The position numbers were made by a program, and so were the translations under genes. This document shows positions 3,828-26,350 of a stretch of 26,350 nt of DNA, piece after piece (within the stretch, counting starts at the first letter, position 1; each line of letters starts with the position of its first letter). The stretch covers positions 1 to 26,350 of IMG/VR virus record IMGVR_UViG_3300022926_000100; one strand, given 5' to 3'. The stretch is from a virus. Under the pieces are notes generated by a model. It did no database searches, was not told the DNA's origin, and saw only the letters and a list, made by a program, of their open reading frames with translations.

Positions 3828-4529
3828 ATGCCTATTGAACGCGGCGGTTACAGTCTTTACCTTTACGGTTCAGGCGACTTCGGTACAAGCGGCGTTATCC
3901 ATGAGGGTAGCGCTTCTGTATCGGCTTCCGCGTCAATGTCGGCTTCTGGTGGTCGTTCGCTAAAAAGTTCAGCAGCGGCATCTGTTTCTTCTGCGACAGC
4001 AGCAAGCGCAATGCGTGAACGTGAATCTGGCGCATTAGCTTCAGTCACTTCAACGATTATTGCAGCCGGTGAAGGCGTTGTAATCAAACGCACTGATAAA
4101 CTCGCTTATGGCGGTGGTGTTTACGGATACAACGTATTTGATAATGCTGACTTGCAGACAATATCGTCAGCAACTTCAGCAGGGTCAACGGCGAGCGGTG
4201 AAAAAATCCATCTTGGCTCTGCTTCTGCATCGGCGTCAGCATCTTCAGCAAGCTCATCTGAGCGCGTTAGAGAGGCGAATGTCCCAACAAACTTAGCCGA
4301 TGGCACCTTCAATAGTTACGCGTACACAACAGCTTCTGCGCAAGGTGCATTTACAGTAAATTCTCAGCCTAGAACCGTGACTGCGAGAGCAACTCCTGCT
4401 TTGGTAGTCGAAAGGGTCAGGTTTACGACACAGCTTTCCGTAGTTGAATCGGCTACGATTGCTATCGGTCGTGAAAAATGGGAAATTATCACCAACGATT
4501 CAAATATTTGGACTACAATCGCCGCATAA
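3828..4529 (+). CDS. Repetitive Ser/Ala-rich, Tyr-Gly motif tail protein
   Basis: 233 residues with two copies of a composite module. Copy one has a Tyr-Gly motif (YLYGSGDFGTSG, 11-22), IHEGSAS, a Ser/Ala tract of alternating S and A, and RERE (63-66). Copy two has YGGGVYGYNVF (94-104), IHLGSAS, another Ser/Ala tract and RVRE (146-149). The C-terminal 80 residues are non-repetitive and beta-rich, with alternating hydrophobic residues. YGxGxYG motifs are common in phage tail proteins. I recognise no enzyme signature. Its place between a Gp80-like protein and the tail fibre suggests an exposed or linking tail component. The Ser-rich tracts could be sites for modification, which is speculation. 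Confidence 0.65.
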   Translation: MPIERGGYSLYLYGSGDFGTSGVIHEGSASVSASASMSASGGRSLKSSAAASVSSATAASAMRERESGALASVTSTIIAAGEGVVIKRTDKLAYGGGVYGYNVFDNADLQTISSATSAGSTASGEKIHLGSASASASASSASSSERVREANVPTNLADGTFNSYAYTTASAQGAFTVNSQPRTVTARATPALVVERVRFTTQLSVVESATIAIGREKWEIITNDSNIWTTIAA

Positions 4530-7533: not shown

Positions 7534-8273
7534 TGTTTAAGAAAGAGAAAGATATCGAGCTTACTTTTGTATGTCACGACGCAAACGCGTATCACCAGCA
7601 TAGTGTTCACCTTGCTCGCAATAATATGCCTGATTGGTATAAAAACCTGCCTAAGCCTGAAGGTTACAACTTCGATAAGGATCATTCTTTGCCAAACATG
7701 AAGTTATGTAGCGGCTTGACCGATATGTACGACAAGATGATCGAAATTCCGATGTGGTCAGATGTCGCGTTTAAGATCGGCAAAAAAGGCACTAATTTTT
7801 GGGCTTACGCATTTGCGAGCATGGATGGCGGATTTACGCAGCACAATGAATATCAGCGTGGGACATTTCGCCCTGATGAAAGTAACTGCCACATGAAGTT
7901 GGATATGGTTTGGATGGTTGAGTCTAGCGAGCCAGTCGATCTGCTAATGCTAATGCCGTCATGGTCTAACAATTACAGTGAACACATAACGTGGCTTGAG
8001 GGCGTTCTTGATACCGAATTTATATCAACGCTTAACGTCAATATGATGTTTGCTAGAAAGGATGAAGATTACGAACTAACCCTCAAGGAAAACGATCCGG
8101 CGGCTTTCTTACTCCCCTTGACACAGAAAAATGTGAAAATTAAAACGGAGCTAGTCTCTAAGGATGAGTGGGAAGCAAGAAGGGCAGCAACCTTTAGACC
8201 AACGTCTTTTGTGGGCGGCTTGCAAAAGGCACGAAAAAGCAAAGCGAAGTGCCCGTTCAGGTTCAATCGATAG
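7533..8273 (+). CDS. Unknown protein between oxygenase and tail genes, 246 aa
   Basis: The start overlaps the oxygenase stop by one or two bases, so the two are translationally coupled. Visible features: an N-terminal strand (IELTFVCHDANAYHQH), MPDWYKNLP (32-40), a short Cys-containing segment (MKLCSGLTDMYDKMIEIPMW), then alternating strands rich in Trp, Met and His. The C-terminal 40 residues are basic and end in KCPFRFNR. I recall similarly shaped proteins next to 2OG-Fe(II) oxygenases in marine phages but cannot name a family with confidence. No HxD...H set typical of the oxygenases is convincing here. It may be a partner or substrate-binding protein for the neighbouring enzyme; this is inference from position only. 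Confidence 0.6.
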   Translation: MFKKEKDIELTFVCHDANAYHQHSVHLARNNMPDWYKNLPKPEGYNFDKDHSLPNMKLCSGLTDMYDKMIEIPMWSDVAFKIGKKGTNFWAYAFASMDGGFTQHNEYQRGTFRPDESNCHMKLDMVWMVESSEPVDLLMLMPSWSNNYSEHITWLEGVLDTEFISTLNVNMMFARKDEDYELTLKENDPAAFLLPLTQKNVKIKTELVSKDEWEARRAATFRPTSFVGGLQKARKSKAKCPFRFNR

Positions 8274-14947: not shown

Positions 14948-16633
14948 ATGGCTAGAACGCTAGTAAATCTGCCTGATGGCCGAAAAGAGTATATCGACCA
15001 TCCAGAAGGTGCATCAGAAGCTGACATCTTAGGCTTTGCTAAACAGCAGTATGAAGCAGGCGCATTCGGTGAAGCGCCTAAAGACTACTCTGGCATGTCT
15101 ACTGGCGAAAAGGTTATGGAAGGCCTTAGTAACGTAGGAGAGTCAGGCGCTAAGCTTGCAGGTGCATTATACGAAGCTGTTACCAATCCTATCGACACGG
15201 CCACTGCGATTTACAACGTAGGTAAGGGTGCTATTCAGCTAGGCTTGCCTGAGCTTGGTATTAATATCGATGGTGACCCAGAAGCACAAGCAATGGCTAA
15301 GCGTGTTGGCCAATTCTATACAGATCGTTACGGCTCACCAGAAGCTGCTCAACGCGCAATGATTGAAGATCCTGTTGGTGTACTTGCTGACATAAGCCTG
15401 GCATTCACTGGCGCAGGCGCAGGCCTTCGTGCAGGAGCTGCCACAGCTAAAGCTGCTACAGGCGCTAAAGCAGGTACGATTGCCGGAGAAACACTGACTG
15501 GTATCGGTGGCGCAGGTCAGAAGTTGATGGGCGCAGGTTCAGCCATTGAGCCAATAACCGCTACAACAAAAGGCGCTCTTGCTCTAGGTAGAGGCGCTAC
15601 TACTCTTGCAGGTTCAACTGCAGGCCGTTTAGCAGGTCAATATTCAGGCACTGGTTACGCTCCAATTCAGGCTGCATATCAAGCTGGTCGCCAAGGCGGT
15701 GAAGCTGGCGAATCATTCCGATCTGCAATGCGTGGTCAAGATGATATGAGTGCAGTAGTTGCTAGCGCTGAAGATGCTGTCAGGGCTATGAAGGACCGTG
15801 CATTTGCCGCATACAGCACGAATAAACAAGCACTAGCTCAAGATAAAAATATCTTGTCATTTAACTCTATTTTAGGCGCAATTCAGCGTGGCAAGCAGAT
15901 GGCTATGTCAGGCAAGATCGTTAAGCGTCCAAGCGTATTAAAGTACGTTGATGAGGCTGACAAGGCTGTAAAAGAATGGATAGCCGGTGATCCTAGAGTC
16001 AATCATACCGCATCAGGATTTGATGATTTAAAGCAGCGTTTAGATGACATCTACGAAAGCATTCCAATGAACGAGCGTACAGCGCAGTCTGCTGTATTGC
16101 AGATTAAGAAGGCAGTGCAAAGTAGTATCGGTAAACAAGCGCCTGCTTATGCCAAGTACATGAAAGAATACTCAAACGCGATGGAAACTATCAAAGAGAT
16201 CCAGAAGTCGCTATCCATGGGTAAGAACGCTGGCGCAGAGACTAAGCTGCGTAAGTTGCAGTCAGTTATGCGTGATAACGTAAATACTGGCTACGGTTCT
16301 CGTGCTGAGAAAGTTAAGATGCTAGACGAAGAAGGCGCAAACATCATGCCTCGCGTCGCAGGTCAATCTATGCAGTCATGGATGCCACGAGGTATTCAGG
16401 GTGCAACAACCCCGCTTGCAGCTGGTGGTTTGGCTCTTTATGGAGCTAACTGGCCTGCTGGTTTAGCTGCCATGGCGGCAGGATCACCACGCGTTGTTGG
16501 TGAAATGTCTCACGCATTAGGCCGCGCTGGCCAGGTGGCAGATCCTGTTGCGTCAGTCTTGCGTAAGATGGACCAGCCCACGATAATGAACGCTTTATAT
16601 CAAATGCAGCGCGCTGAAGAGGAAAAGCGATGA
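14948..16633 (+). CDS. Large Ala/Gly-rich internal virion or ejection protein
   Basis: 561 residues, two bases after the previous stop. The first 40 residues (RTLVNLPDGRKEYIDHPEGASEADILGFAKQQYE) resemble a short domain common at the N-terminus of phage internal proteins. Residues about 140-225 are a small-residue stretch (Ala, Gly, Thr) that could form membrane-interacting helices, and 477-505 is another. The middle (250-440) is helical and charged, coiled-coil-like. It ends with a charged helix (IMNALYQMQRAEEEKR) overlapping the portal start by four bases. An ejection role, forming a channel for DNA across the host envelope, is plausible but unproved. Confidence 0.6.
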   Translation: MARTLVNLPDGRKEYIDHPEGASEADILGFAKQQYEAGAFGEAPKDYSGMSTGEKVMEGLSNVGESGAKLAGALYEAVTNPIDTATAIYNVGKGAIQLGLPELGINIDGDPEAQAMAKRVGQFYTDRYGSPEAAQRAMIEDPVGVLADISLAFTGAGAGLRAGAATAKAATGAKAGTIAGETLTGIGGAGQKLMGAGSAIEPITATTKGALALGRGATTLAGSTAGRLAGQYSGTGYAPIQAAYQAGRQGGEAGESFRSAMRGQDDMSAVVASAEDAVRAMKDRAFAAYSTNKQALAQDKNILSFNSILGAIQRGKQMAMSGKIVKRPSVLKYVDEADKAVKEWIAGDPRVNHTASGFDDLKQRLDDIYESIPMNERTAQSAVLQIKKAVQSSIGKQAPAYAKYMKEYSNAMETIKEIQKSLSMGKNAGAETKLRKLQSVMRDNVNTGYGSRAEKVKMLDEEGANIMPRVAGQSMQSWMPRGIQGATTPLAAGGLALYGANWPAGLAAMAAGSPRVVGEMSHALGRAGQVADPVASVLRKMDQPTIMNALYQMQRAEEEKR

Positions 16634-18738
16634 AACTAGAGCCAATGTCAGATGATCAAATCGAAGGTATTGCACAAGAAGCAATCACCGACGCTTTAAG
16701 TTTCATAGAGTCAGAAGTTGCAGACGATCGTATCAAGGCGCAAAAGTACTATAACGGCGAAGTTGATATCGGCGAAGAAGAAGGTCGTTCTAAGGTAGTT
16801 GCTACTAAGGTTCGCGACACCATCCGCCAGATCAAGCCTAGCCTGATGCGCATCTTCTTATCTAACGAAAACTTTGTTGAATATATCCCTAAGCGACCAG
16901 ACCAGGTTCTAGCTGCAGAGACTGCGACCAAGTATATCCACGGCAAGTTTCAAGAGAACAATGGCTACCGTGTTTTATCTGACGCATTCCACGACGCACT
17001 GCTGAAGAAAGTCGGTGTCGTTAAGTGTTACTGGGATGAGGTTGAAGACTCAGAGACTTATGAGTTCACTAACCTTACTGAAGAAGAATTAACCATCCTG
17101 GCTCAAGAAGATGACGTAGAGATCATCGAACAAGAAGTCGAGATGGAGATCGAAATTGACGAGATGGGTATGCAGGTAGAAACGCCTCGCCATAGCGTCA
17201 AGATCATGAAGCGCAACCTATCAGGTAGTTTGCGTATTGAGTCAGTTCCGCCAGAAGAGTTCTTTGTAAACCGTGAAGCTGTATCGATTGATGATTGTTA
17301 TGTCTGCGGCCACCGCACTGAGTTACGCGTTGGTGAGCTTGTAGAAATGGGCTACGACTTTGACCAGGTGTCAGAGTTGTCAGGAATTGCTTACAACGAC
17401 ACCATGTCAGAGGCTGAGCAGTTCGAGCGTCGTGGTTGGGACCAGATGGAGACTGACGAGTCTAAGCAAGACCCATCAATGAAGCTGGTTGCGATCACTG
17501 AAGCGTACATGAAGATCGACGTAGACGGCACTGGCATGCCACAGCTACACAAGTTAATTCTTGGTGGCGGTGAGATGGAGTTGCTTGATTACGAGCCATG
17601 CTCAGTCATTCCTTTCGCTATCTTTGAGTCAGACCCAGAGCCACACACATTCTTCGGTAACTCGATCGCAGATCTAATCGTTAACGACCAGGATGCGGCC
17701 ACCGCAATGCTTCGTGGTGTACTCGATAACATCGCGATGACTAACTCACCACGCCTGGCGATGGTTGAGGGTCAGGTCAATATCGACGACCTACTGAATA
17801 ACGAGATTGGCGGCATTGTTCGCATGCGTCAGCAAGGCGCAGTTCAAGAGATGTCAGTGCCATTTGTGGCAGGACAAACTCTAGGCGCTCTTGAGTACTA
17901 CGATCAGACTATCGAACAGAAGACTGGCGTAGCACGCGCATCTAACGGATTAGATCCTAACGCTCTACAGAACACTACCGCGACAGCGGTACAGCTTACT
18001 CAGGCCGCTGGTCAGGGCCAGGTTGAAGTTATTGCACGCAACTTAGCTGAAGGTGGCATGCGTCGCCTGTTTAAGTTGATGTTGAAAGCAGTATCTCAGA
18101 ACAGCCCAGAAGAAGAGATGATGCGTGTTTCTGGCGAGATGTTTATGCCAATAGATCCACGTTCATGGGGTATCGATATGAATATCTCAATCAACGTAGG
18201 CTTAGGCACTGGCAAAGAAGACGAGAAGGCTATGGCGCTTCAGTCTACCTTACAAACCCAGATGGCGATCTATCAGACTTACGGAGCGCAGAATGGCGTC
18301 GTGTCTCTTACTAACATTCGTAACACTCTTGCTGATATCTTGGCTCTCGGTGGTATGCGTAACGCTGATCGCTACTACGCGCCAATGAACCAACAGATCG
18401 AACAGCAGTTGATGATGCAGATGCAACAGCAGGCAGCTCAACAACAGCCACCTGATCCAAATGCAGCGCTAGCCCAGGCTCAGATTGCTGCAGAGCAGAT
18501 TAAGGCTCAGGCTAAGATGCAAGAAGTTCAGGCTAAGATTCAACTTGAAGCTCAAAAAGCGTTGGCCGAAGACGATCGTCAGCGCGACAAGATGGACGCT
18601 GATCTATTGGTTGAGGCAGCCAAGATCCTTGGCCAGTGGGGCGTAGCGGTTGATGTGGAAGAGATTAAAGCAATGCAGAACTCGCCACGTTATGCAGACG
18701 TAGCGCCAGCACAAGCGGTACCTGAAGCGAGATATTAA
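16630..18738 (+). CDS. Portal protein (P22-type)
   Basis: 702 residues, close to the size of the P22 portal. The N-terminus is helical and acidic; IRQIKPSLMRIFLSNENFVEYIPK (63-86) and the segment around SVPPEEFFVNREA (about 201-214) fit the clip/stem/wing layout of the P22-like portal family. The core PFAIFESDPEPHTFFGNSIADLIVNDQDAATAMLRGVLDN is typical of portals. Residues 575-675 are Gln/Ala-rich coiled coil, as in the P22 barrel extension. Twelve subunits form the entry ring at one capsid vertex. The next gene starts in its TAATG stop. GATC sites are dense here (about 20 by hand count). Confidence 0.85.
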   Translation: MKLEPMSDDQIEGIAQEAITDALSFIESEVADDRIKAQKYYNGEVDIGEEEGRSKVVATKVRDTIRQIKPSLMRIFLSNENFVEYIPKRPDQVLAAETATKYIHGKFQENNGYRVLSDAFHDALLKKVGVVKCYWDEVEDSETYEFTNLTEEELTILAQEDDVEIIEQEVEMEIEIDEMGMQVETPRHSVKIMKRNLSGSLRIESVPPEEFFVNREAVSIDDCYVCGHRTELRVGELVEMGYDFDQVSELSGIAYNDTMSEAEQFERRGWDQMETDESKQDPSMKLVAITEAYMKIDVDGTGMPQLHKLILGGGEMELLDYEPCSVIPFAIFESDPEPHTFFGNSIADLIVNDQDAATAMLRGVLDNIAMTNSPRLAMVEGQVNIDDLLNNEIGGIVRMRQQGAVQEMSVPFVAGQTLGALEYYDQTIEQKTGVARASNGLDPNALQNTTATAVQLTQAAGQGQVEVIARNLAEGGMRRLFKLMLKAVSQNSPEEEMMRVSGEMFMPIDPRSWGIDMNISINVGLGTGKEDEKAMALQSTLQTQMAIYQTYGAQNGVVSLTNIRNTLADILALGGMRNADRYYAPMNQQIEQQLMMQMQQQAAQQQPPDPNAALAQAQIAAEQIKAQAKMQEVQAKIQLEAQKALAEDDRQRDKMDADLLVEAAKILGQWGVAVDVEEIKAMQNSPRYADVAPAQAVPEARY

Positions 18739-18995: not shown

Positions 18996-20015
18996 GTGGA
19001 AACGACTGAACCTATGAGCATTGACCAGGCTGTAGAAGCCATGGTCGCACCAGAGCAACCAGTAGAAGAGGTTGTTGAAGAAGAATCTCAGTCGGCGTCA
19101 GAGCCAGAGGCAGAGTTTGAGGAAGAGCAACCCGAAGCGGACTCTTTCGATGAAGACGAAGTCGAAGATGATGACGACGATGAACCGGAATCGGACGACG
19201 CGGACGATGAAGGGGATGAGGACTACGAAGACGACGTAGACGAAGCTGAGGACGAACAAGAGCCTGAAACAGAACTCATCACCGTAAAGGTGGACGGAGT
19301 CGAACAACAGGTAACCCTTGAAGACCTCAAGCGAGGATACAGCGGTCAGCAGTATGTCCAGCAAGGCATGCAGAAAGCAGCCGAAGCTCGTAAAGAAGCT
19401 GAGGAAACTTTCAATGCTTTGATGCAAGAGCGGCAGCAGCTAGCGAACATTGTTAATCAAGTTCAGCAAGGTGCTTTAGTTCCGCCACAAGAACCGAGCC
19501 GCGAGCTGTTCGATAGTGATCCTATTGGCTACATGGAAGCCAAGATGAATTACGACGAGCAGGTCAAGGTGTACAACCAGAACGTACAAGTTGTTCAACA
19601 ACAGATGCATCAGCAGTCTGCAGCAGAACAGCAAGCGCGCGGTAAGTACATCACTGAAGAAGCGTATCGGTTAGTAGAGGCTATGCCTGAATTGTCTGAT
19701 CCCAAGAAATTGGAAAGCTTTCAAGGCAGAGTTAGAAAAGTAGGTGAAAAGTTCGGTTACTCTAAGGAAGAGTTGTCAGCTATCACATCGCATCGTGACA
19801 TGCTTGTCTTAGATGCAGCTGCTAAGTATATGGCCCTACAAGATGGCAAAGAGATCGTTCGCCAGAAGGCAAAGAAAGCCCGTAAACCTGTAAAGGCCGG
19901 TGCTAAGAAAACTGTCAAGAAAGGCGAAGCTGCTCGCAAACAACGCGACAAACTAAGACAGAGCGGTTCTATTGAGGACGCAATGTCACTGATACTTGAT
20001 CCAAACTTGAAGTAA
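18996..20015 (+). CDS. Scaffolding protein (acidic N-terminus, basic C-terminus)
   Basis: 339 residues from GTG at 18996, chosen because AGAGGGGG lies ten bases upstream; the ATG at 19014 is a less supported alternative. Residues 17-94 are extremely acidic (long D/E runs). TVKVDGVEQQVTLEDLKRGYSGQQYVQQGMQKAAEARKEAEE (96-137) is a pattern I recognise from putative scaffolding proteins just before SU10-type capsid genes. A coiled coil (140-215) follows, then helices. Residues 285-322 are strongly basic (KAKKARKPVKAGAKK), as expected for a coat-binding tail. It should guide capsid assembly and then leave the shell. Confidence 0.75.
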   Translation: METTEPMSIDQAVEAMVAPEQPVEEVVEEESQSASEPEAEFEEEQPEADSFDEDEVEDDDDDEPESDDADDEGDEDYEDDVDEAEDEQEPETELITVKVDGVEQQVTLEDLKRGYSGQQYVQQGMQKAAEARKEAEETFNALMQERQQLANIVNQVQQGALVPPQEPSRELFDSDPIGYMEAKMNYDEQVKVYNQNVQVVQQQMHQQSAAEQQARGKYITEEAYRLVEAMPELSDPKKLESFQGRVRKVGEKFGYSKEELSAITSHRDMLVLDAAAKYMALQDGKEIVRQKAKKARKPVKAGAKKTVKKGEAARKQRDKLRQSGSIEDAMSLILDPNLK

Positions 20016-20032
20016 TTTAAGGAGACTTAATC

Positions 20033-21004
20033 ATGCAACCTACTAATACTTTTGACAGCTACGATGCTGTCGGCATTCGCGAAGATTTACGCGACGTAAT
20101 CTACAACATCTCACCTGAAGAGACCCCATTCCTTTCTGCTTGTAAGAAGTCAAAAGCGACTAACACTTACCACGAGTGGCAGACTGACTCTCTTCGTTCA
20201 TCAGCAGCTAACGCGCACATCGAAGGTGACGCAACTACTGCTGAATCTCGCGGTAGTACAGTAAGATTAGGAAACTACACCCAGATCTTTAAGAACGCAG
20301 TTGTTGTTCCTGATACTGACGAAGGCATCAACAAAGCTGGCCGTGCGAAAGAAATCGCATACCAGACAATGAAGATGGCTAAAGAGCAGAAGCTCGATAT
20401 CGAAAAGGCATTGTTCGACAACAACGCTCGTGCAGCAGGTGCTTCTAACGCAGCTCGTGAGTTGGCTGGCGTTCCTGCTTGGTTGACTACCAACACTGAC
20501 TTTGTTACTGGTGGTGCAACTGACGGTGCTGATCCTACAGGTGACGGTACTGATGCGCGTACTGACGCAGTAGGTAGTTTGACTGCATTCGACCAAGACA
20601 AGTTTGACGGCGTTATGCAATCAATCTGGGAGAATGGCGGTAAAGCATCTTCTGTTTACTTGTCAGCGTTCCAGATGAACAAAGCTCTGGGCTTCACTGG
20701 TATGAATAACCAGCGTTCAACCATCGGCGCAGCTGTTGGTGGTAACAACGCAGTTATTAACGCAATGGACGTTTACGTTACTCCTTGGGGTACTGTTAAC
20801 TTCATTCCATCTCGCGAGAATCGTTCACGCGACGTATTCATCCTTCAGGATGATATGTTCGAGATCGCTGAATTGCGCTCAATGAAGAACACTCAGTTGG
20901 CTAAGAATGGTGATAACACCACTCGCCAAATCGTTACTGAGTTGACTTTGGTGTCTAAGAACGAGGCTGCTTCTGGCGGTATCTTCGACAACACTACTGC
21001 TTAA
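20033..21004 (+). CDS. Major capsid protein (SU10 / DUF5309 type)
   Basis: 323 residues, preceded by AAGGAG, the strongest ribosome site in the window, fitting high expression. The sequence follows the DUF5309/SU10 major capsid pattern: DAVGIREDLRDVIYNISPEETPFLSACKKSKA (10-41), then YHEWQTDSL, the VRLGNYTQIFKNAVVVPDTDEGI segment, an EQKLDIEKALFDNNARAAG helix and the C-terminal NTTRQIVTELTLVSKNEAASGGIFD strand. This is an HK97-type fold family. Codon use is notably biased and the gene is followed by a GC-rich terminator, both consistent with an abundant transcript. Confidence 0.9.
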   Translation: MQPTNTFDSYDAVGIREDLRDVIYNISPEETPFLSACKKSKATNTYHEWQTDSLRSSAANAHIEGDATTAESRGSTVRLGNYTQIFKNAVVVPDTDEGINKAGRAKEIAYQTMKMAKEQKLDIEKALFDNNARAAGASNAARELAGVPAWLTTNTDFVTGGATDGADPTGDGTDARTDAVGSLTAFDQDKFDGVMQSIWENGGKASSVYLSAFQMNKALGFTGMNNQRSTIGAAVGGNNAVINAMDVYVTPWGTVNFIPSRENRSRDVFILQDDMFEIAELRSMKNTQLAKNGDNTTRQIVTELTLVSKNEAASGGIFDNTTA

Positions 21005-21020
21005 TTTTAAGTAGACTGAG

Positions 21021-21044
21021 AGGGGGCCTTGCGCCCCCTTTTTT
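21021..21044 (+). terminator. Rho-independent terminator after the capsid gene
   Basis: AGGGGGC and GCCCCCT pair in a seven-base stem around a CTTGC loop, followed directly by a T run to 21044. It lies 16 bases after the capsid stop and 12 bases before the next start, so it probably reduces, rather than abolishes, transcription into the downstream genes. Confidence 0.85.
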
Positions 21045-21056
21045 ATAGGATTTGAG

Positions 21057-21236
21057 ATGAAAGCAAAGGTTACGGTTTCAAATATGTTTATAGACGGGAA
21101 GAAGTACCGTCGTGGCGATATTGTCGATGTTGACGACATCAATACTCATGGCGCTAAGTTAGAGCCATATATTGAGCCACCAAAGCCGAAGAGAAAGGTT
21201 TCTAAAAAGAAGGTTACAAAAAATGCCGAAGATTGA
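21057..21236 (+). CDS. Small basic protein, 59 aa
   Basis: Short gene after the capsid terminator. Sequence begins MKAKVTVSNMFIDGKKYRRG and continues as a beta-type segment (DIVDVDDINTHGAKLEPYIE), ending in a Lys/Arg-rich tail (PPKPKRKVSKKK). A small SH3-like strand pattern (FIDGKKYRRGDIVDV) is reminiscent of head decoration or connector-type proteins found after capsid genes, but this is weak. It overlaps the next start by 14 bases, and the coding pattern continues to its stop. Confidence 0.55.
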   Translation: MKAKVTVSNMFIDGKKYRRGDIVDVDDINTHGAKLEPYIEPPKPKRKVSKKKVTKNAED

Positions 21237-21522
21237 TGAAAAAATCCTGTACGACAACGCCGAAGATAAGTTGATCGTAAAGCGTACCTACGACGACCAG
21301 GCTGAGCTTGACCGTGTAGCTCAAATACGCAAAGATTCGGGTATCAATAGCTTCGGTTCTGATTATAAGTTCGTGGGCAGTGTGCCTACGCATTTGATCG
21401 CTGAATGGCTTAAAGAGGCCGGTGTATCGTGGGATGACAATCACGCTGCCGGAGAGGTCATTAAACGTAAAATGATGTCAGGCGAGTTTGACCGCCTGCG
21501 AGCTTGGAAAGGCAAGTACTGA
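21223..21522 (+). CDS. Conserved phage hypothetical, 99 aa
   Basis: Start at the ATG at 21223, with AGAAGG nine bases upstream; the frame is open back to 21172 but that is covered by the previous gene. The protein runs MPKIDEKILYDNAEDKLIVKRTYD..., then a Gly/Phe turn (INSFGSDYKFVGSVPTHLIAEWLKEAGVSWDD) and a C-terminal helix ending MMSGEFDRLRAWKGKY. I recall this protein as widespread, after the capsid gene, in marine podoviruses, without a known role. It could be a head completion or head-tail joining component. The downstream gene begins inside its stop (TGATG). Confidence 0.65.
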   Translation: MPKIDEKILYDNAEDKLIVKRTYDDQAELDRVAQIRKDSGINSFGSDYKFVGSVPTHLIAEWLKEAGVSWDDNHAAGEVIKRKMMSGEFDRLRAWKGKY

Positions 21523-21725
21523 TGGATATTGAAACTGCAGAACGACTAGCAAAGCTAGAGACTCAGATGGACCAGCTGATTAGCATGGTCGAAGAGAATC
21601 ATAAAGACTTGCACGAGGTCAAAGATCAACTGACCAAGTGGAAAGGTATTGCCGGCGGTATTGCTATTGCAGTTTCAGTTCTATGGGCCGGCGTCTTATT
21701 TATATTAGAGATGTTTAAACGTTAG
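21522..21725 (+). CDS. XhlA-like small membrane protein with coiled coil, candidate holin
   Basis: 67 residues; start at 21522 on the last base of the previous stop. Residues 1-38 form an amphipathic helix (AERLAKLETQMDQLISMVEENHKDLHEV), followed by a transmembrane segment about 42-63 (GIAGGIAIAVSVLWAGVLFILE) and a basic end (MFKR). This arrangement resembles the XhlA family, which acts with holins at host lysis. No endolysin lies next to it, so a lysis role is only likely. It could also be a membrane anchor for an accessory protein. Confidence 0.55.
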   Translation: MDIETAERLAKLETQMDQLISMVEENHKDLHEVKDQLTKWKGIAGGIAIAVSVLWAGVLFILEMFKR

Positions 21726-21734
21726 GCCATATGC

Positions 21735-22229
21735 ATGTTAGATCCGGTCTCAATCATTGGTATAGCATCAACAGCATTCAAGGGGTTGAAGGCTGCGGTC
21801 GAGATGGGCAGGGAGCTAGAGGATTGCATGGGTCAGCTCAGCCAATGGGCGGGTGCGATAGCGGATCTGGACAAGTCAGAAGAGTTAATCAAAAAGAAGA
21901 AATCGAGCCTGTTTCGTTCCTTGCTACCCACGAGTGGTATGAGCATCGAGCAGCAAGCCATACAAATATTTACAGCGAAACAGACAGCTCGCAAGCAGAG
22001 AGAAGAACTTCGCCAGATTATCCAGTTCACAACAGGGAAGCATGGTTGGGACGAGTTCTTGCGTATGGAAGCACAAATACGAAAGGACAGGCAATCAGCG
22101 TTATATGCTGAGATTGAGCGTCGTGAGAAGCTCAAAGATTTAGGTGTTGCAATCGCAGTATCGTTATTTGTGACTGCTGTAACGGCTGGCGTTATAGCCC
22201 TGGCGGTAGCCATCTATGGGACTAAATGA
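21735..22229 (+). CDS. Membrane-anchored helical protein, 164 aa
   Basis: N-terminal hydrophobic helix (DPVSIIGIASTAFKGLKA), a long charged helical middle (KTEQ-type from 45 to 130), and a C-terminal transmembrane segment about 137-160 (VAIAVSLFVTAVTAGVIALAVAI). The start at 21735 follows a weak ribosome site (TAGG); another ATG overlaps in a different frame at 21731 but its 126-codon frame lacks natural composition. The layout, long coiled coil plus one membrane helix, could suit an i-spanin-like or tail-length-related role, but neither is shown. Unrecognised by name. Confidence 0.55.
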   Translation: MLDPVSIIGIASTAFKGLKAAVEMGRELEDCMGQLSQWAGAIADLDKSEELIKKKKSSLFRSLLPTSGMSIEQQAIQIFTAKQTARKQREELRQIIQFTTGKHGWDEFLRMEAQIRKDRQSALYAEIERREKLKDLGVAIAVSLFVTAVTAGVIALAVAIYGTK

Positions 22230-22413
22230 ACTCATACTGATATATGCAATGAACCATGGTGTCTGGTCCATGGGTACTGACGGTTTGCCACAAATCTGTC
22301 TTAAAGTTCCAATAGAATCTACCGAAGAGAAGACCGAGTTCTTTCAAGGCTGTACTTCAGTTCCCGACGAGATCCTAAACAAGTGGCTACAAGATAGCTA
22401 CATGAAGGTTTAA
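22216..22413 (+). CDS. Small hypothetical protein, 65 aa
   Basis: Start ATG at 22216, 14 bases inside the previous gene; the Met at 22249 is an alternative. Sequence contains VWSMGTDGLPQICLKVPIEST, FFQGCTSVPDEILNKWLQDSYM. The protein looks compact with two Cys and a C-terminal helix. No motif recognised. The 35-base gap after it holds AT-rich sequence without a convincing promoter. Confidence 0.45.
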   Translation: MGLNELILIYAMNHGVWSMGTDGLPQICLKVPIESTEEKTEFFQGCTSVPDEILNKWLQDSYMKV

Positions 22414-22448
22414 GTTCTTGTTATTTATAGTAATCTAGGTTTATAGTC

Positions 22449-22721
22449 ATGCAGCCAGTCATCATCAAGTGGGTCGATATCACAACCGAACTGATTTGGA
22501 ATGACAATACACCAAAGGTAAAACCGTTAGAGTTTACTTCTATCGGTTTTTTAGTTGAAGACCACGATGAGTATGTTGTTGTTAGTGATACTGATGGCGA
22601 GTGGGGTCAACATACTGCGTACCCGAGAGGGTGCATCATTGAGATGAGAGGATTGAAAGATGGAAAACCTAACCGAGCTGTTAAAGTATGTCGAAACGGA
22701 AAGCCAAAAAGAAAAACTTGA
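22449..22721 (+). CDS. Conserved small phage protein, 90 aa
   Basis: Beta-rich sequence: IIKWVDITTELIWNDNTPKV, PLEFTSIGFLVEDHDEYVVVSDTDG, and AYPRGCIIEMRGLKDGKP, with a basic C-terminus (RNGKPKRKT). The WVDI...YPRGCI pattern is familiar from small proteins of marine podoviruses but has no known function. It ends 62 bases into the metallophosphoesterase gene, a long overlap for this genome; coding evidence for the C-terminal part rests on the frame staying open. Confidence 0.55.
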   Translation: MQPVIIKWVDITTELIWNDNTPKVKPLEFTSIGFLVEDHDEYVVVSDTDGEWGQHTAYPRGCIIEMRGLKDGKPNRAVKVCRNGKPKRKT

Positions 22722-23835
22722 GGCTTATATAGAACACGGCTCTAGCCGCAAAGCAGCCGCTGCACTCGGCGTCAACAAATCGAACGTCAGTCGTGCCATT
22801 CAAACCATCAAAAAGAACGCTGTAAAGCGGGGATACGACCCAGAACACGACATGACCCACCCTGTGGCCCAGGGCTTCGCTGTAAAGGGTGTATCCACCT
22901 ATTATGACGAAGACGGCAAGATTCGCGGTCAGTGGGTTAAATCACACGAAGATAAGAAAGCTCGCATAGACGCACTTGTAGAGCGATTAGAGAGCTTTGA
23001 GTGGAAACCCGCACCAATCATACCACTGAAGGAAGAAAGCCACGACAGCGACCTGTGTACGCTTCTGACGCTGACAGACTTCCACCTGGGCATGTACGCC
23101 TACGGCAAAGAGACCGGTGATGATTGGAATACCGACATGGCTGCTGGAGAGTACCTGCAAGCCATTCAAGAGATGTGTGAAGGATCACCTAGCTCTGAGA
23201 CTGGCATCCTGAACCTGCAGGGTGATTTTCTGCACTGGGATGGCCTGGATGCGGTAACGCCGACCGGCAAACATCAACTCGACGCTGATACCCGATTCTC
23301 GCGTCTGATAGACACGTCTCTGGATGTGATCATGGCGTCAGTAGAGATCATGCTACGCAAGTTTAGCCAGGTCAAAGTGATCGTCTGTGAGGGTAATCAT
23401 GATCTAGTTGGCTCTATGTGGATTCGCAAAGCCATAAAGAAGATCTATGAGAACAACGATCGAGTCGAGATTGACGACACAGACTTCCCGTTCTACGCAC
23501 ATTTACACGGCGACATCATGCTTGGCTTCCATCACGGCCACAAGGTCAAGAATGGCAGCCTGCCGGCACTATTCTCATCAGAGCCACGCTACCGCTCTAT
23601 GTGGGGTTCGGCAGCGTACACATACATCCATACGGGCCACTACCACCACACCGAGCAGATGATGGGCGAGGGTGGCGGAGCGATCGTCGAGAGGCATCCG
23701 ACTCTGTCAGGAAAGGATGCATATGCAGCCCGTGGCGGTTATCATTCATGGAGAGCGGCGCATGCCATAACGTACCATAAAGCGTATGGCGAACATCGAA
23801 GGGTCACTGTTACACCAAAATTTAAGGCGGAATAA
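22660..23835 (+). CDS. HTH-metallophosphoesterase fusion protein
   Basis: 391 residues. N-terminus (about 18-52, EKLEAYIEHGSSRKAAAALGVNKSNVSRAIQTI) is a helix-turn-helix with recognition helix near NKSNVSRAIQ. Residues 130-385 are a calcineurin-type metallophosphoesterase: DFH (140-142), QGD (187-189), GNHD (245-248), FHHGH (290-294) and GHYHH (326-330), the full metal-binding set, so activity is likely. Enzymes of this fold hydrolyse phosphomono- or diesters, including nucleic acids and cyclic nucleotides. Fusions of this type recur in marine phages near head genes; role unknown. One could imagine DNA end processing or sequence-specific nuclease action. It overlaps the next gene by one base. 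Confidence 0.8.
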   Translation: MENLTELLKYVETESQKEKLEAYIEHGSSRKAAAALGVNKSNVSRAIQTIKKNAVKRGYDPEHDMTHPVAQGFAVKGVSTYYDEDGKIRGQWVKSHEDKKARIDALVERLESFEWKPAPIIPLKEESHDSDLCTLLTLTDFHLGMYAYGKETGDDWNTDMAAGEYLQAIQEMCEGSPSSETGILNLQGDFLHWDGLDAVTPTGKHQLDADTRFSRLIDTSLDVIMASVEIMLRKFSQVKVIVCEGNHDLVGSMWIRKAIKKIYENNDRVEIDDTDFPFYAHLHGDIMLGFHHGHKVKNGSLPALFSSEPRYRSMWGSAAYTYIHTGHYHHTEQMMGEGGGAIVERHPTLSGKDAYAARGGYHSWRAAHAITYHKAYGEHRRVTVTPKFKAE

Positions 23836-24200
23836 TGACCGAAAACGAAGACGTTAAGACTGATCCTCAATCAGCTAAAGAACAAGCATCAAAGTTTATT
23901 GGCAAGTACGGCCTCGGCGTCGTGCTTGTCCTGGTACTAGCTGGCATCTATGCGGCAGGTTCACTAGAGGCAGGCACCCTGGCGGTAGTCATGTCGATGA
24001 TATCTACTGTAGTGATGGCTGTAATAGGTATTCTAATGGGTATTACAGGTACTAAAGATAAAGAAGAGAAGCCAGAGATCACCATAATTCGTGACCTTAT
24101 TGATAAGGCCTCTAAAGAGGAATCACCTATGCAGGTTGATGTTTCTGACGGCAAGGTGACTGTTCGCAAGGGCGACTCAACTACTACGATGGAGCGTTAA
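23835..24200 (+). CDS. Two-helix membrane protein, candidate class II-like holin
   Basis: 121 residues. A hydrophilic N-terminus is followed by two membrane segments, about 26-42 (LGVVLVLVLAGIYAAG) and 48-71 (TLAVVMSMISTVVMAVIGILMGIT), and a charged cytoplasmic-type tail (KDKEEKPEITIIRDLIDKASKEESP). Starts on the last base of the preceding stop (TAATG). Topology fits small holin-like proteins, but no partner endolysin is visible. The next gene, another membrane protein, starts two bases after its stop. Confidence 0.55.
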   Translation: MTENEDVKTDPQSAKEQASKFIGKYGLGVVLVLVLAGIYAAGSLEAGTLAVVMSMISTVVMAVIGILMGITGTKDKEEKPEITIIRDLIDKASKEESPMQVDVSDGKVTVRKGDSTTTMER

Positions 24201-24201
24201 G

Positions 24202-24639
24202 ATGTTTGGATTACCTATTGAAGCTGTCAGCATGATCGGATCGACCGCTCTTGGTGGCTTGATGAAGATGTGGGGACAGGCACAGCAAGACAAGGCTGAG
24301 CAGTTCAAGCAGATGATGGCCCGTAACAGTCAGATCGAAGAAGGTGTCAATAATGCGCGAGCTATGCAGAATCCTAACGCAGCTTGGGTTCGTCGTTTTA
24401 TTGTTGTCACTGCTATGCTTGGCGGGTTGGGTATTGTTTTCCTTGCTCCACTGCTTGGACAATCGACTAATGTGCCAATAGAAGTCACTTCAGGCTTCAA
24501 GTTCCTGTTCTTGGACTTCACCAACACTGCGACTGAATATCTTCAGCTAGATGGCTTTGTGACCCCAGAATGGTTACCTGTGGCCATAATGAATATTATC
24601 GGTTTCTACTTCGGTTCAGCCGCGATGCAGCGTAAATAA
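24202..24639 (+). CDS. GTA-holin-like membrane protein
   Basis: 145 residues. The N-terminus has a small-residue amphipathic stretch, then a Gln-rich helix (24-52), and two transmembrane segments, 66-84 (IVVTAMLGGLGIVFLAPLL) and 125-141 (LPVAIMNIIGFYFGSAA). NPNAAWVRRF (57-66) before the first and GFYFGSAAMQRK at the end match the pattern I know from 3TM holins of gene transfer agents and marine phages. This makes it the best holin candidate of the window. Stop and next start share one base. Confidence 0.65.
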   Translation: MFGLPIEAVSMIGSTALGGLMKMWGQAQQDKAEQFKQMMARNSQIEEGVNNARAMQNPNAAWVRRFIVVTAMLGGLGIVFLAPLLGQSTNVPIEVTSGFKFLFLDFTNTATEYLQLDGFVTPEWLPVAIMNIIGFYFGSAAMQRK

Positions 24640-24791
24640 TGAAGTTAGCCACATTATTAATAAGCACAGCACTATTAACCGGCTGCTCATCTCTGGGTTG
24701 GCTAGGAACTGGCGCAAGCGCACTAAGCGATTGTTCATTTGAATCGACCCCATTATGCATCCGCATCAATGGAGCTACGAATGCCCGTTAA
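24639..24791 (+). CDS. Tiny lipoprotein, candidate outer-membrane spanin or superinfection factor
   Basis: 50 residues. An N-terminal signal (MKLATLLISTALLTGC) ends in a lipobox LTGC, making Cys16 the lipidated residue. The mature 35 residues hold two more Cys (32 and 40) and no Pro-rich tract, so it is not a classic Rz1. It starts on the last base of the holin-like gene (TAATG) and the following gene starts 11 bases before its stop. A role as o-spanin is suggested by its place behind a holin-like gene; lipoproteins of similar size also serve in superinfection exclusion. Confidence 0.6.
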   Translation: MKLATLLISTALLTGCSSLGWLGTGASALSDCSFESTPLCIRINGATNAR

Positions 24792-24912
24792 AAAAGTGAA
24801 AGGTGGCTACCGCTGGGGTAGCTCTGGTAAAGTATACAAAACAAAAGCGGCGGCTGAGAAGCAGGGTCGCGCAATCTATGCATCGGGCTACAAGCCCAAA
24901 GGAAAAAAGTAA
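24781..24912 (+). CDS. Small basic conserved phage protein, 43 aa
   Basis: Very basic protein with MPVKKVKGGYRWGSSGKVY at the start and KAAAEKQGRAIYASGYKPKGKK at the end. I recall the same KKVKGGYRWGxSGKVYxT...AEKQGRAIYASGYK pattern as a frequent small gene in marine phages. The lysine/arginine content suggests nucleic acid contact. Start and stop overlap neighbours by 11 and 1 bases respectively, supporting co-translation. Confidence 0.65.
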   Translation: MPVKKVKGGYRWGSSGKVYKTKAAAEKQGRAIYASGYKPKGKK

Positions 24913-25097
24913 TGGCTAAGAAACTAACTCCTGCAGAACGTCAGGCATACGGTAATGAGTTGGCAGGCGGCTTCTCACGCGAAGAGAATCTTAAAGCTGA
25001 ACAGCAACGCACTGGTATTCCATGTCCAGCATGTCCTAATCCATCATCGTGTAAAGCTGCCGGCAAATGCCAGCTTCGCTACTTTAGCGATAAGTAA
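24912..25097 (+). CDS. Small Cys-rich protein, 61 aa
   Basis: Start overlaps the previous stop (TAATG). A charged helix (TPAERQAYGNELAGGFSREENLKAEQQ) is followed by CPACPNPSSCKAAGKC (38-53), a C-x2-C-x5-C-x5-C arrangement that could bind zinc or a metal cluster, or form disulfides. No known family recognised. A second + frame of 61 codons (24955-25140) over the same bases lacks this order and is regarded as a shadow. Confidence 0.55.
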   Translation: MAKKLTPAERQAYGNELAGGFSREENLKAEQQRTGIPCPACPNPSSCKAAGKCQLRYFSDK

Positions 25098-25228
25098 TGG
25101 CAAAGCGTGGGGTTGTAAAGGCAAGAAGTCTGTCAGATAATCCCTTCGTCGGTTCCCGTGACCTCTTATCCGACACTAAGCCCGTTCAGGTTCTTCTCAT
25201 CTGCCTGTTCGGGCTTTTTTATGCCTGA
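25097..25228 (+). CDS. Possible small protein running through the late terminator, 43 aa
   Basis: ATG at 25097 overlaps the previous stop (TAATG), as in the three genes before it. The first 32 residues (MAKRGVVKARSLSDNPFVGS...) are hydrophilic and basic; the last dozen (VLLICLFGLFYA) are hydrophobic but are encoded by the terminator hairpin and T run, so this could be coincidental. The coding case is weak. Confidence 0.25.
   Translation: MAKRGVVKARSLSDNPFVGSRDLLSDTKPVQVLLICLFGLFYA
25178..25220 (+). terminator. Terminator closing the late gene block
   Basis: AAGCCCG (25178-25184) pairs with CGGGCTT (25210-25216); after a 2x2 internal mismatch the stem continues with CAGG/CCTG around a 13-base loop. 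Six T follow to 25220. A smaller GTCGG...CCGAC pairing lies just upstream (25148-25174). Confidence 0.75.
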
Positions 25229-25239
25229 TATAAATAATC

Positions 25240-25276
25240 ATCTATAGATAAATAAATTATTGCGAATAATATCTAT
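25240..25276. repeat. Repeated ATCTAT elements upstream of the first early promoter
   Basis: A perfect ten-base palindrome ATCTATAGAT at 25240-25249 and a second ATCTAT at 25271-25276, 31 bases apart (about three helix turns), flank an AT-rich arm with ATTATT-GCG-AATAAT. They lie 10 or more bases before the -35 box. They may be activator sites or an AT-rich UP-like region; the arrangement could also be chance in AT-rich DNA. Confidence 0.35.
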
Positions 25277-25285
25277 GTAAAAGTG

Positions 25286-25313
25286 TTGACGCTGTCATCA
25301 CACTCTGTATAAT
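25286..25313 (+). promoter_or_regulatory. Sigma70-like promoter P1 with operator-like dyad
   Basis: -35 TTGACG (25286-25291), 16-base spacer, -10 TATAAT (25308-25313, a perfect match). TGAC-GCT-GTCA (25287-25297) is an inverted repeat over the -35. It would start transcription near 25320, upstream of the gene at 25376. The terminator before it and the ribosome site behind it agree. Confidence 0.75.
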
Positions 25314-25318
25314 TGGCC

Positions 25319-25342
25319 TTGGAAATTGAGAAAAATTTCCAA
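25319..25342 (+). promoter_or_regulatory. Hairpin at the predicted 5' end of the P1 transcript
   Basis: TTGGAAATT (25319-25327) and AATTTCCAA (25334-25342) form a perfect nine-base inverted repeat with a GAGAAA loop, starting at the predicted +1 position. It could be an mRNA-protecting 5' stem or an operator overlapping the start site. Confidence 0.55.
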
Positions 25343-25375
25343 ACTGCTATTTAACAATTAGATGAGGTATTAGAT

Positions 25376-25735
25376 ATGGCTATTCGTATCGAATTGGCGC
25401 CTGGCTTTGCAGGCATGCTCCCAGAAGAACATGACACTGTGTGGATTTACACAATCGCTCCACCACATTTAACAAACCATAGGACTGTTCCAGGTGAGTT
25501 AAATAAGATTGCAGAAAACTGGAAGCGAGCAGTAGCCGACCTTAGCGGTCATGATCGTTACTGGGTAAAGCACGGTGGATGGGCGAGAAAGGCAGACTGC
25601 CAGAAGTTCATCAACGGCCTTAAAAAAGAATACGGTTTTCAAGTATTCAAGTTGATCAAGCCAAGCCGTTACGGCGTATGGGATCAACGTATCGAGGCTA
25701 AGAACGCCATCAAGTCAAAGTCTATGGACTGGTAA
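25376..25735 (+). CDS. Unknown early protein, 119 aa
   Basis: First gene after promoter P1, with GATGAGG eight bases before its ATG. The sequence has an N-terminal strand (IRIELAPGFAGMLPEEHD), TVWIYTIAPPHLTNHR, a helix (ELNKIAENWKRAVADL), a Trp/His segment (RYWVKHGGWARKADCQKFINGLKKEYGFQVFKLI) and a basic end. No known family is recognised; the mixed alpha/beta, Trp- and Lys-rich character is compatible with a nucleic acid or partner-protein binding role. It is a single-gene unit: a terminator follows at once. This isolation suggests it is expressed separately, perhaps early as a host-takeover factor. Confidence 0.6.
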   Translation: MAIRIELAPGFAGMLPEEHDTVWIYTIAPPHLTNHRTVPGELNKIAENWKRAVADLSGHDRYWVKHGGWARKADCQKFINGLKKEYGFQVFKLIKPSRYGVWDQRIEAKNAIKSKSMDW

Positions 25736-25741
25736 TTAATC

Positions 25742-25764
25742 GGGGGTGGCAACACCCCCTTTTA
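25742..25764 (+). terminator. Rho-independent terminator after the 119-aa gene
   Basis: GGGGGTG and CACCCCC form a perfect seven-base stem closed by a GCAA (GNRA-type) tetraloop, followed by TTTTATT. It starts six bases after the stop at 25735. Confidence 0.9.
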
Positions 25765-25793
25765 TTGACATGTCAATTTACATCATCTATTGT
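25765..25793 (+). promoter_or_regulatory. Sigma70-like promoter P2 with palindromic operator over the -35
   Basis: TTGACA (25765-25770, perfect -35), 17-base spacer, -10 TATTGT (25788-25793, four of six). The -35 is the left half of the perfect twelve-base palindrome TTGACATGTCAA (25765-25776). It drives the annealing-protein gene at 25825. Confidence 0.65.
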
Positions 25794-25824
25794 TAGTACT
25801 CCAATTAAAGATGAGGTCACACTT

Positions 25825-26350
25825 ATGTCACTGCACAAGCAGATATGGGATACGTTTTCTAAGATTGACGTATCAGGTCACGTTGAGAAGAAGAACGGCT
25901 TAGATTACCTGTCATGGGCGTTCGCAATCCAAAAGCTCAACGAAAATTACCCCAACAACAGCTACGCTTTCACTGAAACCCCAATAGAAGGTGGTACGGT
26001 TATGACGGAATGCGTTATGACCATTCAGGACGGTAAAGAGATAGCTGTCCGCACTATGTGGTTACCAGTCATGGATTACCGCAACAAAGCTATCGCTAAC
26101 CCTGATGCATTCGCTATCAACACTACACGCATGCGTTGCCTGGTTAAGTGCCTGGCCATGTGGGGTCTAGGTCTGTCGCTCTACTCTAAGACTGAGTTAA
26201 CCGACGAGCCGCAGCCACCTAAGAAGCGTATCAACAAAGAGCAGAAGCAGATGTACGTCAATGCATTCCTAGATGCACTTGATGCTGAAGACTCTTTAGC
26301 TCTAAAAGAATTAGGCGATGAACTCAAAGAAGACGAGGCAATGATGTCTG
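25825..26350 (+). CDS. Single-strand annealing protein, Sak3/DUF1071-like (3' truncated)
   Basis: 175 residues visible, no stop before the window edge. GATGAGG lies eight bases before the ATG. Family marks: GLDYLSWAFAIQKLNENYP (25-43), a long segment MWLPVMDYRNKAI (78-90) and DAFAINTTRMRCLVKCLAMWGLGLSLY (94-120), which match the DUF1071 single-strand annealing family as I know it. These proteins bind and pair complementary single strands during phage recombination and replication. The C-terminal part (125-175) is charged and helical; the missing end is outside the window. It marks the beginning of the replication/recombination region. Confidence 0.85.
   Translation, partial: MSLHKQIWDTFSKIDVSGHVEKKNGLDYLSWAFAIQKLNENYPNNSYAFTETPIEGGTVMTECVMTIQDGKEIAVRTMWLPVMDYRNKAIANPDAFAINTTRMRCLVKCLAMWGLGLSLYSKTELTDEPQPPKKRINKEQKQMYVNAFLDALDAEDSLALKELGDELKEDEAMMS

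Follow-up and report, generated by a model that had tools for sequence, protein, structure and literature searches.

Promoters and dyads between the late region and the Sak operon

The stretch of DNA analyzed here (the window, 26,350 bp) comprises positions 1 to 26,350 of IMG/VR record IMGVR_UViG_3300022926_000100, comes from an uncultured phage, and ends inside a gene for a Sak-type single-strand annealing protein. IMG/VR contig 3300022927_000347 (G003, locus L116), in the opposite orientation, overlaps both ends of the window (369 bp at 97.8% and 527 bp at 99.8%), such that the two give a closed map of about 37.9 kb at the strain level. L116 supplies the missing early region, with ssb, a 117-amino-acid Cro/XRE-like protein (XRE117), ninB, ninG, a helicase, a primase-like zinc-ribbon protein, and the terminase genes. 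The closest relative of this phage is G001/G002, and a distant blastn search against annotated phages gave no match. The features of the window that bear on the analysis are as follows.

22660 to 23835, + strand: HTH-phosphoesterase (phrog_704, "DNA repair exonuclease")
25180 to 25221, + strand: terminator at the end of the late region, GCCCGTTCAGG...CCTGTTCGGGC TTTTTTA, kept in G001/G002 with a paired change (pairing judged by eye)
25229 to 25764, + strand: accessory early cassette of 536 bp (P1, ORF, and terminator), in place of which G001/G002 have 3 bp (alignment blocks)
25286 to 25313, + strand: predicted promoter P1, -35 TTGACG (25286 to 25291), 16-bp spacer, -10 TATAAT (25308 to 25313), 11/12 consensus
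25287 to 25297, no strand: dyad of P1 on the -35, TGAC-GCT-GTCA, extending in its longer form to GTTGACGCTGTCATC (25285 to 25299)
25376 to 25735, + strand: 119-amino-acid orphan ORF behind P1, without a Pfam, PHROG, or PADLOC match
25742 to 25759, + strand: hairpin GGGGGTGGCAACACCCCC followed by TTTT, resembling an intrinsic terminator, at the end of the P1 unit
25764 to 25777, no strand: P2 dyad, 14-bp perfect palindrome ATTGACATGTCAAT containing TTGAC-AT-GTCAA (25765 to 25776), 2-bp spacing
25765 to 25793, + strand: predicted promoter P2 ahead of the Sak operon, -35 TTGACA (25765 to 25770), 17-bp spacer, -10 TATTGT (25788 to 25793), 10/12 consensus
25825 to 26349, + strand: start of the P2 operon with the gene for a Sak-type single-strand annealing protein (PF06378), which runs off the window

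In a consensus scan of both strands from 20000 to 26350, P1 and P2 ranked at the top of the promoter-like sites. The original prediction had reported the two dyads from the letters alone, and both are present where it placed them, that of P1 over TTGACG and that of P2 extending even further than described. The prediction had also held that both sit identically on the -35 element. They do overlap it, but P2 does not carry the P1 site with equal spacing, since the arms are separated by 2 bp in P2 versus 3 bp in P1 and the dyad centers lie 5.5 and 6 bases, respectively, from the start of the -35 element.

Because the alignment blocks of G001 stop at 25228 and resume at 25765, P1, the ORF at 25376 to 25735, and the terminator behind it constitute one gained or lost segment. 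P1 is thus part of a cassette that was gained or lost recently, not of a conserved late-to-early junction. A palindrome-bearing promoter of G005 (TTGCCAAAATTGTTTTGGCA) was considered as an orthologous junction and rejected because it is located elsewhere. No relative of the ORF was found in a viral scan. Upstream of the late terminator, a reading frame at 25097 to 25140 of the window ending in GKAWGCKGKKSVR resembles the tail of a G005 gene (..RKAWGCKGKKSVK) and is perhaps a gene remnant. Rfam gave only sub-threshold matches on the junction and none at the gathering threshold over the window, L116, and L119, and no tRNAs were found in L116, L119, or L001.

Recurrence of the dyad in the genome and in relatives

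A motif search over the complete genome and its relatives found the dyad again at two further predicted early promoters on L116, P3 and P4, and at syntenic promoters of relatives. P3, which follows the primase-like gene, reads AAGTGTTGACGCTGTCAGTATGTGGTGTATAGTT, and its 17-bp box AAGTGTTGACGCTGTCA is identical to that of P1. P4, which follows ninG, is a 12/12 promoter (GTTGACAGTGTAAACGGAATATCTATAAT) with GTTGAC-N3-GTAAAC over its -35, its right arm being GTAA, not GTCA; a second site lies 43 bp downstream (GTTTACGAGGTCAAC, of the form GTTTAC-N3-GTCAAC). Three promoters of one genome (P1, P3, and P4) therefore have a 3-bp-spaced dyad over the same core element. The likeness between P1 and P3 ends where the dyad ends, and P4 matches them in arms and spacing while differing in the middle and flank.

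The bare pattern is not rare (four occurrences of TGAC-N1-4-GTCA in the window versus 1.84 expected), and what stands out is its position alone; with that restriction, the view that the dyads are not there by chance held up. Given the genome's own dinucleotides, the probability of GTCA 1 to 4 bases after TTGAC is 0.016, and GTCA followed TTGAC in 2 of 115 TTGAC promoters (≥10/12) from fetched, mostly unrelated phage loci outside the lineage. By comparison, three of the four strong TTGAC promoters of this genome have the GTCA dyad (binomial P = 1.5e-5, or 7e-4 with P1 and P3 taken as one event, since they may be copies of one promoter and hence nonindependent). The full form GTTKAC-N3-GTMAAC occurs perfectly twice, both times at P4, whereas 60 simulated genomes gave an expectation of 0. 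P1 is the only other site that matches with a single mismatch, and eight places, including P3, match within two mismatches (4.7 expected). These counts are partly circular because the form was derived from P4; the identity of P1 and P3 and the conservation in relatives are free of this circularity. Two wider searches were excluded as evidence: phages with tandem GTTGAC-N3-GTMAAC were mostly unrelated, with some sites in arrays or coding repeats, and the 33 contigs with the pattern GTTGACNNNGTCAG..TATARTTA were, outside the lineage, for the most part copies of just a few sequences found in other phages.

Syntenic promoter slots in relatives were defined by means of helicase homologues. The P3 slot reads TTGAC-ACT-GTCA in L143, TTGAC-ATG-GTCA in L147, and TTGAC-ACG-GTCA in L148, and the P4 slot reads TTGAC-AGT-GTCA in L148 and TTGAC-CAGTA-GTCAA (N5) in L146. 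Thus, in L143, L147, and L148, the arms TTGAC and GTCA are constant and the three middle bases vary, which is conservation beyond background, whereas the dyad is lost or rearranged in G002 and L152. It is absent from more distant Sak-bearing phages. Since the dyad recurs at P3, P4, and promoters of relatives with changed middles, a dedicated DNA-binding protein is likely. As separate observations, positions 2502 to 2541 of L147 form a palindromic promoter of 40 bp, in which each strand carries promoter-like hexamers and two operator-like copies stand in inverted orientation, and the more distant G007 (L123/L124) and G008 (L125) have four and two promoters, respectively, that share spacer dyads of the TATATC-N6-GATATA/ATATC-N6-GATAT type, a different operator class.

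In G002, whose helicase is 89% identical to that of this phage, neither P3 nor P4 has the TTGAC-N3-GTCA dyad; both instead carry GTTGAC-N6-GTTTAC, which occurs nowhere else in that contig, and P2, P3, and P4 of G002 have GTTGAC-N6-RTTTAC in common. When the first 12 spacer bases were compared, promoters within a genome agreed at a mean of 5.75/12 positions, versus 3.67/12 for the same slots across genomes (P = 0.0003, permutation by shuffling within slots). In L146 and L148, the likeness between P3 and P4 within a genome continues to the -10 element, so whole-promoter gene conversion can explain part of the within-genome likeness. The within-genome likeness, the arms kept in L143, L147, and L148, and the joint rewiring of the P3 and P4 slots in other relatives together indicate that one trans-acting factor, most likely a repressor, acts on these promoters.

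P2 behaves differently. Its spacer shares 10/12 bases with P2 of G002, while the P3 and P4 spacers of this phage share only 2 to 3/12 with those of G002. The P2 dyad of G001/G002 is broken by one base (TTGACATGTGAA), and the P2 slot of L161 reads TTGAC-TT-GTCA, also with 2-bp spacing. Given the differing spacing, the likeness of P2 to its counterparts in G001/G002 and L161, and the broken dyad in the closest relative, the pairing of P1 with P2 is the weakest link of the original prediction. Its proposal of a single regulator for both is thus sustained with respect to a dedicated DNA-binding protein, which P3, P4, and the relatives support, but not with respect to the P1-P2 pair.

A candidate operator, its probable regulator, and competing explanations

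We consider the best explanation of the whole to be that the dyad at P1 belongs to a set of copies of a shared early-gene operator through which a phage HTH protein exerts repression, and we give this reading a probability of about 0.62. The operator, TTGAC-N3-GTNA (GTTKAC-N3-GTMAAC in full form), would lie over the -35 of the strong sigma-70-type promoters P1, P3, and P4. In the course of infection, the phage would make a dimeric HTH protein that binds the operator and blocks RNA polymerase from the -35 element. P1, P3, and P4 would presumably be closed together at the early-to-late transition. The P1 cassette would have acquired or copied the promoter-operator, such that its orphan ORF is read early and silenced with the other early genes. 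The dyad of P2 is related but has 2-bp spacing, and P2 may be controlled either by this protein or by a different one. Since the promoters are strong and the dyad lies on the -35 element, repression fits better than activation.

The regulator itself had been said not to be visible in the window, in keeping with which the best candidate is encoded outside it, where its gene is flanked by ssb and ninB in the P2 operon.

L116 10659 to 11012, - strand: XRE117, 117-amino-acid Cro/XRE-like protein, HTH_26 at its cutoff, Cro/C1-type HTH (Pfam)

The counterparts of XRE117 in G002 and L161 match Pfam above the cutoff. The order ssb-XRE-ninB is common to this phage, G002, L161, and L150, and Cro-type proteins of 70 to 71 amino acids occupy the ssb-ninB slot in L161, L149, and L150; the XRE genes of L143, L146, L147, and L148 lie beyond their contigs, so comparisons of regulator and operator do not include those four. 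XRE117 is 55% identical overall to its G002 counterpart, and the two share the predicted recognition helix (VSRQH[VA]HNMQN). In its structural model (mean pLDDT, 82.9), residues 1 to 73 match regulators of the XRE fold; C.BclI is the best structural neighbor (Z, 11.2; rmsd, 2.4 over 73 aligned residues), followed by ClgR (Z, 11.1; rmsd, 2.3 over 71 aligned residues), and C.AhdI and C.Esp1396I are also among the nearest. Relatives of XRE117 were found only in this phage and G001/G002 among viral contigs, and none was confirmed in genome contigs. Based on gene content and the predicted fold, the genome thus encodes a Cro/XRE-type HTH protein that would most likely be the one binding the operator.

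The original prediction had instead offered the HTH of the phosphoesterase as a candidate; on this reading, the protein would be made late and close the early promoters. This candidacy retains some force, as the HTH (residues about 12 to 54; window positions 22660 to 22830) has diverged abruptly from G002, G006, and G005 in a gene whose remainder is conserved (about 91 to 95% identical between this phage and G002), as expected if its target had changed, and the gene lies in the late region. Nevertheless, we regard it as improbable and a poorer fit than XRE117, given that the family is annotated as a DNA repair exonuclease, that the Pfam HTH match falls under the cutoff, and that an HTH fused to an enzyme may merely direct the enzyme to its own site. 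A closer contender, although we favor it somewhat less than even odds would, invokes two regulators, one for the 3-bp dyads of P1, P3, and P4 and another for the 2-bp dyad of P2, e.g., for the Sak operon alone. The differing spacing, the P2 spacer that stayed the same in G002 while P3 and P4 were rewired, and the 2-bp spacing in L161 all speak for a division of this kind; on the other hand, the half-site TTGAC/GTCAA is identical, and the element common to P2, P3, and P4 of G002 suggests one regulator in that phage. This possibility also overlaps our preferred reading, in which P2 may respond to either protein.

If P1 were simply a recent copy of the P3 promoter that arrived with the cassette, the dyad would be a by-product without operator function, and the other matches would reflect coincidence or gene conversion. 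P1 and P3 do share the middle GCT, which is variable among P3 orthologues; P3 and P4 of L146 and L148 are alike to the -10, and G001 is without the P1 segment. This account is nevertheless unlikely, since the P1-P3 likeness halts at the end of the dyad, P4 is alike in arms and spacing only and carries a further site that does not lie on its -35, and the P3 orthologues retain GTCA despite variable intervening bases. Class II activators can also bind dyads at the -35, but an activator or host regulator is quite improbable here: promoters as near to consensus as P1 (11/12) and P4 (12/12) should need no activator, and the operators differ between close phages, unlike the sites of a conserved host protein. 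Least credible of all is a bidirectional promoter with a -35 on both strands. The reverse strand of the dyad does read TGACA or TTGACA, and P3 of L147 has promoter-like sites on both strands; however, when both strands were scanned, none of P1, P2, and P3 had a promoter match on the reverse strand, and the idea was rejected for P1 to P3.

Likeness to known systems and possible early cargo genes

Short dyads over promoter elements are familiar from the Cro-CI operators of lambda and P22 and from the C proteins of restriction-modification systems. The present sites resemble these in lying on promoter elements, and the candidate XRE117 has a predicted Cro/XRE fold. They differ in that no divergent cI/cro pair and no restriction-modification genes were noted and the site sequence is another.

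Another parallel is provided by the acr promoters regulated by Aca1, Aca2, and other Aca proteins, in which a small HTH protein represses a near-consensus early-type promoter through an inverted repeat inside the core, with a second repeat up- or downstream in some cases (PMC9410906). P1 and the ORF behind it match this layout (an inverted repeat within the core promoter and an accessory gene behind). In Aca-acr loci, however, the HTH gene lies directly downstream in the same operon, whereas the ORF here precedes a terminator and P2, and the candidate regulator would serve several promoters and is not adjacent to the P1 gene, an orphan without a family match. In SIRV2, which has Aca8, a number of accessory early genes have in common one regulatory sequence, specific to the virus, that surrounds the core of the promoter; such sequences vary from virus to virus, inverted repeats lie on the core in some of them, and the sequence has been tied to anti-defense genes by experiment (PMC11065993). 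The sharing of a regulatory sequence ahead of accessory early genes is similar here, although the promoters and regulator of SIRV2 are archaeal and its anti-defense link is experimental. Our literature search yielded these analogues and no report of this motif. Since acr promoters have the same layout and SIRV2 has a shared sequence, the arrangement is already known; the instance, the phage group, and the joint rewiring are the additions made here.

Across this group, P1, P3, and P4 are each followed by a small first gene, and these genes are mutually unrelated as far as detectable, except for the pair behind P3 of this phage and P3 of L146, and P3 leads into different genes in near-identical phages. 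Because nearly all are unrelated small orphans, the operator seems to mark exchangeable early cargo. We tentatively suggest, while holding it to be rather less probable than its converse, that P1, P3, and P4 form a regulon in which unrelated small, plausibly anti-defense genes are exchanged downstream of a promoter-operator. Within each genome, the copies of this promoter-operator would evolve together under a regulator that changes rapidly, and searching for the operator could then reveal genes of this kind in the group. If the operator reading is right, a 12-bp operator marks the coregulated early genes of an uncultured phage group, offers a simple reporter test for a switch protein, and allows searches for small early orphan genes that possibly counter host defenses; it would also be a compact case of joint operator rewiring at several promoters of close phages.

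Several other elements were observed. The long intergenic stretch upstream of the helicase contains a conserved noncoding element, GAACGTGTTCCGGATGGAGCTTGGCAGGCTCCTAAAGTGACCGGAACG, with a predicted hairpin (L116, about 7979 to 8103, - strand; L119, 12907 to 13010) that was found only in this phage and G001/G002 and has no Rfam match. The same stretch has a conserved promoter-like site opposite to the genes (L116, near 7961, + strand; L119, 13066, - strand), whose spacer dyad is GCAA-N4-TTGC in this phage and GCAT-N4-ATGC in G002, possibly for an antisense or small RNA. Finally, a candidate late promoter upstream of the terminase genes (L116, about 4430 to 4445, - strand; L119, about 16600 to 16680; L132, about 16400 to 16450) has a conserved dyad, TTAG-N3-TTCTAATATACT, that is distinct from the early operator.
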